Shown here in pieces: positions 6,867-54,018 of a stretch of 59,725 bases of DNA (position 1 is the first letter of the stretch; each line of letters opens with the position of its first letter). The DNA is taken from positions 1 to 59,725 of the forward strand of contig JAJRXR010000057.1 in assembly GCA_024276195.1 (NCBI GenBank). The letters run 5' to 3'. The translations under genes were made by a program, and so were the position numbers. The stretch comes from Planctomycetota bacterium. Its GTDB lineage: Bacteria; Planctomycetota; Phycisphaerae; Phycisphaerales; UBA1924. The notes under the pieces were generated by a model that saw only the letters and a program-made list of their open reading frames with translations, did no database searches and had not been told where the DNA came from.

Positions 6867-8711
6867 GTGACAGATCCGACCAACCAACCCGAGGCCAAGC
6901 CCAACGACGAGATCAGCACCGTCTCGTTCGTCTCGCTCGGGTGCCCCAAAAACCTCGTGGACTCGGAAAAAATGCTGGGCCTGCTCGCCGAGGACGGCAT
7001 CGTCCCCGTCTCCGCCACCGCCGTTGAAGACGGCGAGCACGACGATCTCTCGCTCTCGGGTTCCGAGCAGGACGCCTCGGCCGCGTCGGGTCGCGTCACA
7101 CCCGCCGACGCGGTCGTCATCAACACCTGCGGCTTCCTCGAGGCCTCCAAGCAAGAGTCGCTGGGTGTTATCCGCGAAGCCGTCGAGGCCAAGGCCCGCG
7201 GCGAGATCAAGCGCGTCGTGGTCGCCGGGTGTCTCGTGCAGCGCCACCGCGCCAAGATGCTCGACTGGGCGCCCGGGATCGACGCCATGCTCGGCGTCTT
7301 CGACCGCGACCACATCATCGAAGCCGTCCGAGGCGCCAAGTCAGAGCGCCAGTCACTCGAACAAGCGACCGAGACCGGACCCAAGTACTGGATCAGCGCC
7401 AACGCCCTCGTCAAAGCCAAAGCCGATGGTTTGCAAACCGTCGGACTTTCTGTGAACGGGAAGGACGGCAAGGGCATCGGCTACTTCGAGTCCGACAGCG
7501 CCCGCCTCCGCCTCACCCCGCGCCACTACGCCTACCTCCGCATCTCCGAGGGGTGCAACCAGAACTGCGCCTTCTGCACCATCCCCTCCATCCGCGGCAA
7601 GATGCGCTCCAAACCCATCGACGCCATCGTCTCCGAGGCCCGCGAACTCTTCCGCGACGGCGCCTACGAACTCCTGCTCATCGGGCAAGACACCACCAGC
7701 TTCGGCGACGACATCGGCATCGGCCTCGGCTCCTCTTCTCCCTCTCCCTCTCCCCTCCCCCCACTCGTGGCACGGGCGTCCCGCCCGTGTACTTCTTCTT
7801 CTTCTTCTTCTTCTTCTTCTCACGGGCGAGACGCCCGTGCCACGGGAGACCTCTTCTCCGCCGGCCTCCCCAAACTCCTCAAAGCCCTCTCCGACGCCGC
7901 CGGCGAGGAGATCGGTCGCGCCTGGCTCCGCCTCATGTACGCCTACCCGTCCAACTTCTCCGATGAGATCATCGACGCCTTCGCCGAGCTTGCCGACACG
8001 GGCAACCTGCTGCCGTACATCGATATCCCCCTCCAGCACGCCTCCGACAGCGTCCTGACCGCGATGCGCCGCAACGTCGATGCCGCCCAGCAGCGCGGGC
8101 TCATGCTCAAGCTCCGCGAGCGCATCCCCGGCATGGCCATCCGCACCACCTTCGTCACCGGCTTCCCGGGCGAGACCGAGGGCGACCACGAGCAGCTCCT
8201 CGAGTTCATCGAGGAGATCGGCTTCGACGCCGTCGGGTGCTTCCAGTATTCGATGGAAGAGGGCACCGTCGCGGGTCGGATGGAGACCGACCCCGCGCTC
8301 GCGGTCGATCCCGAGACCAAGCGCCGCCGTCACGACGAGATCATGGCCCTGCAGCAGCGCATCGCCTTCGAGCAGGCCGAGTTCCTCGCCGAGCAGTTCA
8401 ACCCCGAGAAGCCAACAGACTCTGGCGTGCAGTTCGATGTCCTGATCGACCGCGCCATCTCCTCCCCCGCCCAGGCGGGGGAGGTGGCGAGCGAAGCGAG
8501 CCGGAGGGGGTCCGCCGCCGACCCGGGCGTCTACCAGGGGCGCACCTACTTCCAGGCGCCCCAGATCGACGCGAGCACCTTCGTCCAGTCCGCCGAGCCG
8601 CTGAGCCCGGGCGAGCTGGTCCGGTGCGTTGTCGTGGGCTCCGACGAGTACGACCTGATCGCCCGCCCGACGAGCGAGCTCGAACGGCGCGTGAGCCTGC
8701 CGATCGCCTGA
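6867..8711 (+). CDS. rimO: Ribosomal protein S12 methylthiotransferase RimO, enlarged by in-frame repeats
   Basis: A 614-residue radical-SAM enzyme that methylthiolates the conserved Asp of ribosomal protein S12. The N-terminal UPF0004 domain has SLGCPKNLVDSEKML, a central NTCGF and AGCLVQ (three Fe-S cysteines). The radical SAM cluster motif is EGCNQNCAFC near residue 230. A C-terminal TRAM domain contains GRTYFQAPQID and SDEYDLIA. Normal RimO is about 440 residues. Part of the excess is explained by three repeat-derived insertions: residues about 186-193, about 301-326 (serine-rich) and about 532-549 (in a TRAM loop). All keep the frame and leave the catalytic motifs intact. Start is a GTG at 6867. 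Confidence 0.95.
   Translation: MTDPTNQPEAKPNDEISTVSFVSLGCPKNLVDSEKMLGLLAEDGIVPVSATAVEDGEHDDLSLSGSEQDASAASGRVTPADAVVINTCGFLEASKQESLGVIREAVEAKARGEIKRVVVAGCLVQRHRAKMLDWAPGIDAMLGVFDRDHIIEAVRGAKSERQSLEQATETGPKYWISANALVKAKADGLQTVGLSVNGKDGKGIGYFESDSARLRLTPRHYAYLRISEGCNQNCAFCTIPSIRGKMRSKPIDAIVSEARELFRDGAYELLLIGQDTTSFGDDIGIGLGSSSPSPSPLPPLVARASRPCTSSSSSSSSSHGRDARATGDLFSAGLPKLLKALSDAAGEEIGRAWLRLMYAYPSNFSDEIIDAFAELADTGNLLPYIDIPLQHASDSVLTAMRRNVDAAQQRGLMLKLRERIPGMAIRTTFVTGFPGETEGDHEQLLEFIEEIGFDAVGCFQYSMEEGTVAGRMETDPALAVDPETKRRRHDEIMALQQRIAFEQAEFLAEQFNPEKPTDSGVQFDVLIDRAISSPAQAGEVASEASRRGSAADPGVYQGRTYFQAPQIDASTFVQSAEPLSPGELVRCVVVGSDEYDLIARPTSELERRVSLPIA
7423..7444. repeat. 22-bp palindrome inside rimO (ttgcaa centre)
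   Basis: Left arm ccgatggtttg and right arm caaaccgtcgg are complementary at 10 of 11 positions; the odd pair can form a G-U wobble. It is translated as part of ADGLQTVGL. It has the same length and centre type, and the same codon phase (first base at codon position 2), as the two 22-bp palindromes in thiC. Confidence 0.7.
7767..7843. repeat. Paired REP-like element with CTT-repeat spacer, inside rimO
   Basis: Left arm gtggcacgggcgtcccgccc and a right arm that is its near-complement (cacgggcgagacgcccgtgc plus cac) flank about ten CTT units. In the rimO frame the arms encode ARASRPC and HGRDARAT and the spacer encodes a serine run. It sits between IGQDTTSFGDD and LPKLLKAL, a surface-loop region between radical SAM strands. 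Confidence 0.85.
8461..8513. repeat. REP-like element inside the rimO TRAM domain
   Basis: A cctcccccgcc/ggcgggggagg hairpin (8461-8484) is followed by a conserved tail gcgagcgaagcgag and ggagggggtc. The same hairpin plus tail is found in thiC at 53837-53889. Both copies are read in the same codon phase, giving SPAQAGEVASEA here and [12 protein letters not shown] in thiC. Confidence 0.85.
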
Positions 8712-8725
8712 GCGTGAGCAATATG

Positions 8726-51927: not shown

Positions 51928-54018
51928 ATGACAACCACCACCCCCGACCACCTCGCCCCCGGCTCCCCCGCCGCCAAAGCCAACGACCTCACCACCCGCG
52001 CCCTCCGAGACAGCCAATCGATGCGCGACACCCTGCGCATCACTCAGCAAGGCCCGGCAACCCCCGACGCCGCCTACCCCCTCCCCGTCCACGGCGCCTT
52101 CATCCCCGCCTCCGACACCAACACCACCTCCCCCGGTTCCTTCGCACACGCCCCCGACATCGGAGGTCCCTACGCCTTCTCCTCCCCCGACACCCCCGGC
52201 ATGCCCGCGCCTTCCGACAAAACCGCCTGGGACTTCCTCCCCGATGGCTGGCGCGTCGAGATTGAAAAAGCCGCAGGATTGCAATCCTGCGGATACGAAG
52301 TGGGTACAGGTCGCGTCACCTTCACCGACGCCAAAAACATCACCCGCACCGTCACCTACCCCGCCGACTTCCAACCCATCACCCAGCTCGAGCGCGCACG
52401 CCTAGGCGAGATCACCCCGGAAATGGTCCGCGTCGCTGAGCGCGAGCCTCACCTCACGCCCGAGCAGGTCCGCGATGAACTCGCCGCCGGGCGCCTCATC
52501 ATCCCCGCCAACATCAAGCACCTCGCCTGCAACCTCGACCCCATGGCCATCGGGCGCGCCACACGCACCAAGGTCAACGCCAACATGGGCGCCAGCCCCG
52601 TCTCCTCCGGCACCGAAGAAGAAGTCGAAAAGCTCCAGTGGGCCGAGCGCTGGGGCGCCGACACCGTCATGGACCTCTCCACCGGCGGCGACCTCGACGC
52701 CTGCCGCAACGCCATCATCTCCAACAGCACCGTCCCCATCGGCACGGTCCCCATCTACTCCATGATCATCGGGCGCAAGCTCGAAGACCTCGACGAACAG
52801 ATCGTCATGGACACGCTCCGCCACCAGGCCGAGCAGGGCGTCGACTACTTCACCATCCACGCCGGCGTCCAACGCGCCCACCTCCCCCTCGTCAAAGACC
52901 GCCTCATCGGCATCGTCTCCCGAGGCGGCTCACTCCTCGCCAAGTGGATGCTCACACACTCGCGTGAAAACCTCATGTACGACATGTGGGACGACATCTG
53001 CGACCTCATGCGCCAGTACGACGTCTCCTTCTCCATCGGCGACGGCCTCCGCCCCGGGGGCCTCGCAGACGCCACCGACCTCGCCCAGCTCGCCGAACTC
53101 CAAACCCTCGGCGAGCTCACCGAGCGCGCCTGGCGCCGCGGCGTTCAGGTCATGATCGAAGGCCCGGGCCACGTCCCGTTCGACCAGATCGAGTTCAACG
53201 CCAAGCTCCAGCGCCGCATCTGTCACGGCGCTCCGTTTTACGTCCTCGGCCCCCTCGTCACCGACGTCTTCCCCGGCTACGACCACATCACCAGCTCCAT
53301 CGGCGCCACCGCCATCGCCTACCACGGCGCCTCCATGCTCTGCTACGTCACCCCCAAAGAACACCTCGGCCTTCCCAAAAAGGGCGACGTCAAAGACGGC
53401 TGCATCGCCTACAAAATCGCCGCCCACGCCGCCGACGTCGCCCTCGGCATCCCCGCGACCCGCGACTGGGACGACGCCCTGACCAAAGCCCGCGCCGCGC
53501 TCAACTGGAACAAGCACTTCGAGCTCGCCTTCGACGAGGACACAGCCCGCGCCTACCACGACGAAGACCTCGATGTCGATACTGATTTTTGCGCCATGTG
53601 CGGGCACGACTGGTGCTCCGTCCGCATCTCCAAAGAGATCCAGGAGTTCGCGTCAGGCAATGCCCAGGGATTCGAATCCCTGGGTCCCAAGCGTTCCGAC
53701 GCCCTGACCCCCGAGCAGAGCGCCATCCTCGAATCCAGGGGCTACCTCAACCCCGAAGAGATCCACAAGCTCGCCGCCAAGTCTTCCTCCCTCTCCCCAG
53801 CGGGGGAGAGGGCCGGGGTGAGGGGGGACGCCAAATCCTCCCCCGCCCCAGCGGGGGAGGTGTCGAGCGAAGCGAAGACGGAGGGGGTCCCCTCCAAGCT
53901 CGCCTGCCACTCAGATCTCGCAGATGCCGACGAAGCCCAGCAGCTCCAGTCCGACGTCGTCGTCCAACTCAACACGGCCCCGGCGCACAACCTGGCGAGC
54001 GAGGATCGGGTGGTGTAA
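51928..54018 (+). CDS. thiC: Phosphomethylpyrimidine synthase ThiC, with in-frame repeats
   Basis: A 696-residue ThiC, the non-canonical radical-SAM enzyme that turns aminoimidazole ribotide into HMP phosphate for thiamine. The N-terminal domain has [20 protein letters not shown] and [15 protein letters not shown] strands ([17 protein letters not shown]), then [13 protein letters not shown]. The Fe-S motif is CAMCGHDWC near residue 555. Typical ThiC is about 430-630 residues. Four repeat copies add sequence at residues about 115-122, 579-586, 620-633 and 637-655; the last three lie in the tail after the Fe-S motif and should not disturb the core. Under TPP riboswitch control. Confidence 0.95.
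52271..52292. repeat. Perfect 22-bp palindrome inside thiC
   Basis: Arms ccgcaggattg and caatcctgcgg, perfectly complementary with no spacer. It is translated as part of [12 protein letters not shown] and has the same codon phase as 7423-7444 and 53663-53684. Confidence 0.9.
53663..53684. repeat. Second perfect 22-bp palindrome inside thiC
   Basis: Arms cccagggattc and gaatccctggg. It lies in the C-terminal tail after the Fe-S motif, translated as part of [11 protein letters not shown]. Same length and codon phase as the other two intragenic 22-mers. Confidence 0.9.
53787..53825. repeat. Repeat insertion in the thiC tail, shared with the DUF58 gene
   Basis: ctctccccagcgggggagag hairpin followed by ggccggggtgagggg. 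Translates to [13 protein letters not shown]. Same element as 34259-34296 in the DUF58 gene. Confidence 0.85.
53837..53889. repeat. Repeat insertion in the thiC tail, shared with rimO
   Basis: cctcccccgccccagcgggg plus gagg hairpin, then the tail gtcgagcgaagcgaagacgg and agggggtc. Same element and same codon phase as in rimO (8461-8513). Confidence 0.85.

Follow-up and report, generated by a model that had tools for sequence, protein, structure and literature searches.

Probable REP-like hairpin elements in thiC of a Planctomycetota bacterium and a candidate RAYT-like transposase

Introduction

Repetitive extragenic palindromic sequences (REPs) and REP-associated tyrosine transposases (RAYTs) form the REP/REPIN-RAYT system, which is characterized, in the portions of the literature drawn on here, by short scattered palindromes, occurring as singles and as inverted doublets, that flank a gene of the HUH-Y1 type (PMC3116915; PMC6006769). 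A related group, TnpA-Y1 class 3, is reported from Planctomycetes, Acidobacteria and Proteobacteria (PMC6006769). REPs within genes have also been described: according to the relevant parts of PMC3733652, intragenic REPs in Opitutus terrae and the RPE elements of Rickettsia conorii, over half of which are dimeric or grouped, encode 20-30 residues, and intergenic REPs are biased to convergent or co-oriented gene pairs; the abstract of the same paper mentions tagged REPs in Planctomycetes. The present analysis concerns a stretch of DNA of 59,725 nucleotides from a Planctomycetota bacterium of the Phycisphaerales (GCA_024276195.1, contig JAJRXR010000057.1), hereafter the window, in which three 22-bp palindromes, P1, P2 and P3, lie within the conserved genes rimO and thiC. 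It is very probable that P2 and P3 are short REP-like elements, spread in trans, and that P1 is ordinary rimO sequence. A small transposase was probably responsible for dispersing the family to which P2 and P3 belong.

The window, contig C46 in an 88-contig genome of 3.04 Mb, has a GC content of 68%. The closest named relatives of its ThiC are mostly metagenome assemblies of Phycisphaerales or Planctomycetota. Same-genus genomes G001 and G002 served for comparison of rimO, thiC and a glycosyltransferase gene, with G003 added for the glycosyltransferase. The palindromes and their host genes are as follows.

6867..8711, plus strand: rimO, ribosomal protein S12 methylthiotransferase, 614 residues (TIGR01125, 388.9 bits, above the cut-off)
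7423..7444, plus strand: P1, look-alike palindrome in rimO with one T.G mismatch, judged to be ordinary coding sequence outside the family
51928..54018, plus strand: thiC, phosphomethylpyrimidine synthase, 696 residues (PF01964, E 2.6e-176; TIGR00190)
52271..52292, plus strand: P2, probable REP-like palindrome CCGCAGGATTGCAATCCTGCGG with AAAAAGCC foot, perfect, in the N-terminal linker of thiC (residues 115-122); one of 14 family loci
53663..53684, plus strand: P3, probable REP-like palindrome CCCAGGGATTCGAATCCCTGGG, perfect, in the C-terminal tail of thiC (residues 579-586, AQGFESLG)

A thiamine pyrophosphate riboswitch (RF00059, 68 bits) precedes thiC at 51701-51804.

An earlier sequence-only reading had placed the three palindromes correctly as to coordinates, length and pairing, in the genes for RimO (TIGR01125) and ThiC (PF01964/TIGR00190). 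It had also rightly noted that all three start at codon position 2 and encode peptides of the type A-x-G-L/F-Q/E-x-x-G.

A dispersed hairpin family

Perfect palindromes with arms of at least 11 bases number three in the window (P2, P3 and 21535-21558), whereas 20 dinucleotide-chain shuffles gave 0.15 on average and never more than 1. A larger sample of this genome, 355,844 bases, holds five, against 0, 3, 0, 0 and 0 in five third-order shuffles, an excess weaker than in the window, and one of the five is a GCC tandem repeat. The same sample yields at least 11 one-mismatch palindromes of 22 bp or more, counting P1 and leaving out four that derive from repeats. At this density, at least one every 32 kb or so, a stretch as long as the window should contain one or two. 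The occurrence of P2 and P3 thus exceeds chance, and P1 alone is unremarkable.

The core SNNNGGWTTSSAAWCCNNNS is present at four places in this genome (P1, P2, P3 and C64:21266), all extending to near-perfect 20-bp palindromes, compared with none for the reversed control. It was also found at 30 places in 15 of 30 other genomes, where manual reading showed mostly unpaired arms; a core match is therefore not diagnostic by itself in those genomes.

P2 and P3 are members of a dispersed family of tiny hairpin repeats. With two wider search patterns and curation, 18 units at 14 loci were identified across the genome (3.04 Mb), their consensus being AAAGCC-nnn-GGA-n6-TCC-nnn-GG; control matches for the family searches were 0, 6 and 1. 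P1 was excluded from this count, as were poorly pairing matches at C34:68785, C19:26300, C21:29300, C39:82968, C5:17373, C11:24625, C46:43207, C59:9330 and C61:2808. Four of the 14 loci are inverted doublets whose units are separated by a single A, for example AAAGCCGCGGGATTCACATCCCGCGG-A-CCGCAGGATTCACATCCTGCGGCTTT. Across the 18 units the CC foot (first base in 17 of 18), GG at positions 6-7, A8 (18/18), T15 (17/18) and C16-17 are common, and the stems vary yet stay paired. The string AAAGCCGCAGGATTGSAATCCTGCGGA is common to P2 and the copy at C64:21266, which lies between predicted genes. GGATTCGAATCC may resemble a tRNA T-arm.

Related copies extend beyond this genome. P3 is within two mismatches of AAGCCCAGGGATTNNNATCCCTGGGC, and that pattern, with up to three mismatches allowed, occurs in 11 of 31 genomes including this one (10 of the 30 others), with no control match in all 31. 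The P3 23-mer GCCCAGGGATTCGAATCCCTGGG is identical at G020:C68:10607, a copy between predicted genes. Most copies in G013 and G020 are full palindromes of the form AAAGCCC...GGGCTTT. Orientation of the neighboring genes was tabulated for 42 of them, namely all 19 in G013 and, in G020, 22 of 26 listed copies plus one extra (left out were those on C67, C77 and C99, and C66:2625, missed by the pattern), with gene calls from a home-made rule based on open reading frames (ORFs) and third-position GC (GC3), not from a trained gene finder. Seventeen lie between convergent, 20 between co-oriented and four between divergent genes, and one lies inside a gene, counts for which no background expectation was computed.

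Copies inside genes

Eight sites of this genome fell in ORFs. At five of the 14 family loci the ORF is supported by Pfam. Two of these are P2 and P3 in thiC; a group-1 glycosyltransferase gene (C65) and a cytochrome-c assembly gene (C83) each contain a doublet, and an FGAM synthase gene (C63) contains a single unit. The remaining three sites, P1, C17:317 (before the assumed transposase start) and C34:20040 (in an ORF with no Pfam match), were left uncounted. The glycosyltransferase doublet is the cleanest case, a clear in-frame insertion. The protein reads HTHSSKAGILGRWAAWRA-LKAAGFTSRGPQDSHPAALETTRNV-RPAIIHTIHGPPF, compared with HTHSSKAGILGRWAAWRA-DP-RPAIVHTIHGPPF in G001, a net gain of 23 codons (69 nt) absent from G001, G002 and G003, which are all equally short. 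The cytochrome-c assembly doublet falls within a loop that varies among relatives, and the FGAM synthase copy (residues 363-370) lies between segments aligned to a solved structure (residues 355 and 421).

Within ThiC, P2 and P3 are both outside the catalytic domain (Pfam domain, residues 152-569). The segment with the P2 linker spans 42-63 residues across the 51 of 109 thiC loci that match the pattern used, the window's own included. The only other palindrome of the family pattern within thiC among the 109 loci is in locus L270, again in the P2 linker and at codon position 2, with arms GGGT...ACCC; scanning of the other 108 loci found no paired family-pattern palindrome at the position of P3. 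At the P2 linker, thiC of G002 (L036) and of G001 (L037) encodes an unrelated repeat-like peptide, GGEDGERSEPG. Different species may thus acquire different repeats at the P2 linker.

The sequence-only reading had proposed one element, tolerated in a single reading frame and producing a neutral surface loop. The single-frame rule was rejected, since all three codon positions are used: the seven genic units in four Pfam-supported genes start at 2, 2, 2, 2, 1, 1 and 3, and the frame pattern seen in three cases vanishes once more copies are counted. Tolerance of an inserted element in neutral protein parts finds support for the family of P2 and P3, in their position outside the catalytic domain and in the glycosyltransferase insertion.

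P1 in rimO

The P1 region KAKADGLQTVGLSVNGKDGKG aligns without gaps to KAKADGRETVGLSVNGKDGKG in G001, with which it shares GATGGT and GTCGG, and to the corresponding region of G002. Around P1, 13 of 45 nt differ, against 22% gene-wide. P1 carries T8/A15 where family units carry A8/T15, and it is without the GGA...TCC inner arms. Being collinear with same-genus homologues and off the consensus, P1 is most likely ordinary, vertically inherited coding sequence that is nearly palindromic by chance. For rimO, the alignment with relatives called for by the sequence-only reading showed the segment present in G001 and G002, an outcome which that reading had given as refuting its proposal, and on the same two grounds an element common to rimO and thiC was dismissed.

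Another dispersed repeat, with arms like GTGGCACGGGCGTCCCGCCCGTG / CACGGGCGAGACGCCCGTGCCAC, occurs in the window at 6763-6823, 7766-7844 and 31920-32014, and one of its copies is inside rimO (protein VARASRPC...SSSHGRDARATG).

Transposase genes and their flanking hairpins

On contig C17 an ORF at 373-909, encoding a candidate transposase, has a family copy on either side (317-344 and 913-934). The same layout is seen in G020, where a gene at 51975-52490 of contig C41 is flanked by the family copies at 51920 and 52509. Homologues of the C17 protein are present in 44 of 81 genomes, this one included. Hairpins were surveyed at 31 loci, comprising the 30 best, one per genome and with C17 included, plus a RAYT-like gene of the window. 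Strong hairpins were found on both sides at 17 of these loci and on at least one side at 24. Random positions gave 0.5% for both sides (a control drawn from rimO/thiC loci, in which draws on short loci were scored negative), and the ends of rimO and thiC genes gave 0 of 54 for both and 10 of 54 for any. Although these hairpins were found without a motif, AAGCC stands at the foot in 34 of 48, across 19 of the 31 loci, compared with GTAG or GTGG near the foot in two of 48. Among 55 family sites none has a GTAG/GTGG foot, a count that is partly circular because the sites were chosen by an AAGCC-like pattern.

Of 29 aligned proteins (those of L374 and L378 being too short), 26 were kept and those of L371, L388 and L390 were left out. 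HxH, a W, the Y and a H four residues after it (Y159, H163) are invariant in the 26, and these Y-x3-H proteins share an extended N-terminal block, W-x-H...G-x-WLPGDPRGF. A profile built from them finds IS200-type transposases with solved structures, but with weak scores (best E 0.00095). At E<=0.01, 17 of the 26 match NCBIfam REP_Tyr_transpos and two match the IS200 model; Pfam Y1_Tnp is matched by 11.

Comparison with known systems

The P2/P3 family together with its candidate transposase resembles the REP/REPIN-RAYT system (TnpA-Y1 class 2 in PMC6006769, as far as that class is set out in the parts used), with which it shares a dispersed repeat, inverted doublets and copies around a transposase gene (C17 and G020 C41). 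It departs from that system in its mostly AAGCC feet, in its Y-x3-H motif in place of Y-x3-NP, no NP being seen in the 26 sequences, and in its few copies. The likeness to TnpA-Y1 class 3 includes planctomycete hosts, extended N-terminal conservation and atypical flanking hairpins; however, the available description of class 3 gives YV[VI][AENY]EQ and a CnGA foot in contrast to Y-x3-H here (PMC6006769). A glutamine at the place of the class 3 Y-x4-Q motif occurs solely in the C17 protein among the 29 aligned. Palindromic insertions inside ORFs, such as the glycosyltransferase doublet absent from the G001-G003 orthologues, recall the intragenic REPs and RPEs of PMC3733652, a likeness to the RPEs by description, whereas the tags given in the parts of that paper used here are GTAG and CGTC and the hosts are others. 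Intragenic REPs and the orientation bias are already known; the present case is set apart by its foot, its Y-x3-H motif and its host group. Among the matches listed, titles and abstract openings on planctomycete palindromic repeats, REP, RAYT or Phycisphaer- palindromes describe no AAGCC-footed family.

Origin of the palindromes

The element would consist of an AAAG foot and a hairpin CC-nnn-GGA-n6-TCC-nnn-GG, present as singles or inverted doublets. An IS200-like (HUH, single-tyrosine) RAYT-like transposase, encoded by the copy-bracketed gene on C17, may act in trans on such copies. By analogy with REP-RAYT, as outlined in the sections of PMC3116915 and PMC6006769 used here, it would recognize the folded foot-plus-hairpin in single-stranded DNA and move singles or doublets. 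Many copies lie between genes, and genic ones may survive in length-tolerant linkers, presumably as neutral additions. Such landings would be survivable because the hairpins lack stop codons in the frames used and because selection would keep the net insertion a multiple of three. What the sequences themselves show is the dispersed family with its kept pairing and doublets, one clear in-frame insertion and a transposase gene bracketed by copies; movement by that protein, a single-stranded target and neutrality are inferred from them.

Several observations weigh against this reading. The C17 protein is under the curated cut-offs (Pfam Y1, 22.1 bits against 23; NCBIfam, 25 against 80), seven of the 31 transposase loci have no hairpin by the rule used, and the link between transposase and family is one of position. 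Neither a target-site rule nor polymorphic excision was observed for the family. The A8/T15 preference is partly imposed by one search pattern, being free in the other (AAGCCNNNGGNTTNNAANCCNNNGG), and is limited to this genome, as the GGGT...ACCC arms of the L270 copy illustrate. P1 fits the looser pattern AAGCCNNNGGNTTNNAANCCNNNGG with no mismatch, which was treated as coincidence and is the main point against P1 as ordinary sequence. In thiC, the P2 linker is too variable to reveal an empty site, and simple insertion does not account for P3: GFERIG or GFER stands there in many relatives, and the window's thiC is seven residues shorter than those of G001 and G002 directly after P3, which calls for either replacement or an insertion accompanied by loss.

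It could be argued instead that the palindromes are intrinsic terminators, or hairpins of mRNA 3' ends with a favored stem, and that genic copies are accidental. The orientation counts in G013 and G020 point this way, with many copies 10-50 bp from a gene 3' end, as do the A-tract and T-tract feet of many copies. However, published REPs have the same convergent and co-oriented bias (PMC3733652, in its treatment of intergenic REPs), and terminators are not expected in frame within the four Pfam-supported genes, nor would they be expected to bracket one transposase class at 17 of 31 loci when 0 of 54 control genes show this, so that such an origin is unlikely. A single element for all three palindromes would require P1 to have arisen in rimO by a gene-conversion-like replacement that left the length unchanged. 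The exact fit of P1 to the loose pattern, and the observation that P3 too seems to replace rather than add sequence, could be taken in favor; nevertheless, P1 is without the GGA/TCC arms of the 18 tabulated units, no sister copy with its stem was found among the family-pattern matches, and it shares two short strings with G001 amid near-ordinary divergence, which together make this origin improbable.

If the palindromes were parS-like or operator-like sites, bound by a sequence-specific protein and located in genes by chance, this would account for the shared core, the dyad symmetry and the presence of three of the four exact core matches on one 60-kb contig. Stems that vary with pairing kept, doublets, copies flanking transposase genes and the use of other stems in related genomes speak against such sites and leave them with very little probability. 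The least credible proposal is that all three are chance palindromes. The frequency of one-mismatch 22-bp palindromes makes chance likely for P1, but near-identical copies of P2 and P3 elsewhere in this and other genomes refute it for these two. An all-chance origin was discarded on the excess of the core over its control and on the family copies in this and other genomes.

Short REP-like elements thus being preferred for P2 and P3, a wider proposal can be made tentatively, as a conjecture somewhat on the doubtful side, of a separate, unrecognized REP-RAYT lineage in Phycisphaerales. It would combine Y-x3-H HUH transposases, AAGCC-footed hairpins, genome-specific stems and in-frame decoration of housekeeping proteins, sometimes with replacement of host sequence as at P3. 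The hairpins and transposases described here would explain some odd length-variable linkers in planctomycete enzymes and supply a matched set for the study of HUH recognition of non-GTAG feet.

Other hairpins and repeats

The window has a RAYT-like gene of its own, placed with an inverted hairpin pair between rimO and an FtsW/RodA-like gene.

8726..8757, plus strand: hairpin of the inverted pair at the RAYT-like gene, of another REP type, CCCACGACGAGTCTTCGAGTCGTGGG; 32-bp exact inverted repeat with 9322-9353
8769..9299, minus strand: RAYT-like (Y1/HUH) transposase gene, product 42% identical to the C17 protein; PF01797 match weak (E 0.0018, 18.8 bits, below the cut-off of 23); HAH and Y motifs aligned
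9322..9353, minus strand: partner hairpin of the same pair; 32-bp exact inverted repeat with 8726-8757

This stretch, 8726-9353, has the appearance of a REPtron-like unit with a different hairpin type. The motif-free hairpin scan reported nothing at this gene because the hairpin loop exceeds the limit of 8. Different paired hairpins stand beside three of the genome's five other Y1 genes, on C43 (L345, CGTGGAGACGCC...), C64 (L344, GATCGGCTC...) and C39 (L347, GGGGGGGCTTCC...); by the same scan, the Y1 genes on C65 and C7 have no such hairpins.

The third perfect palindrome of the window, at 21535-21558, is the 24-bp ATCGACGCCATCGATGGCGTCGAT, for which no link to the P2/P3 family was seen. On contig C19 (L098) two further palindromes, at 14759-14782 and 15662-15677, have the core TGTTCCACGTGGAACA and resemble parS. 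GC-rich repeat-like palindromes CTCCCCCGCC...GGGGGAG are present inside both rimO (8461-8484) and thiC (53786-53860), with PAQAGEVASEASRRG among the stretches that they encode.

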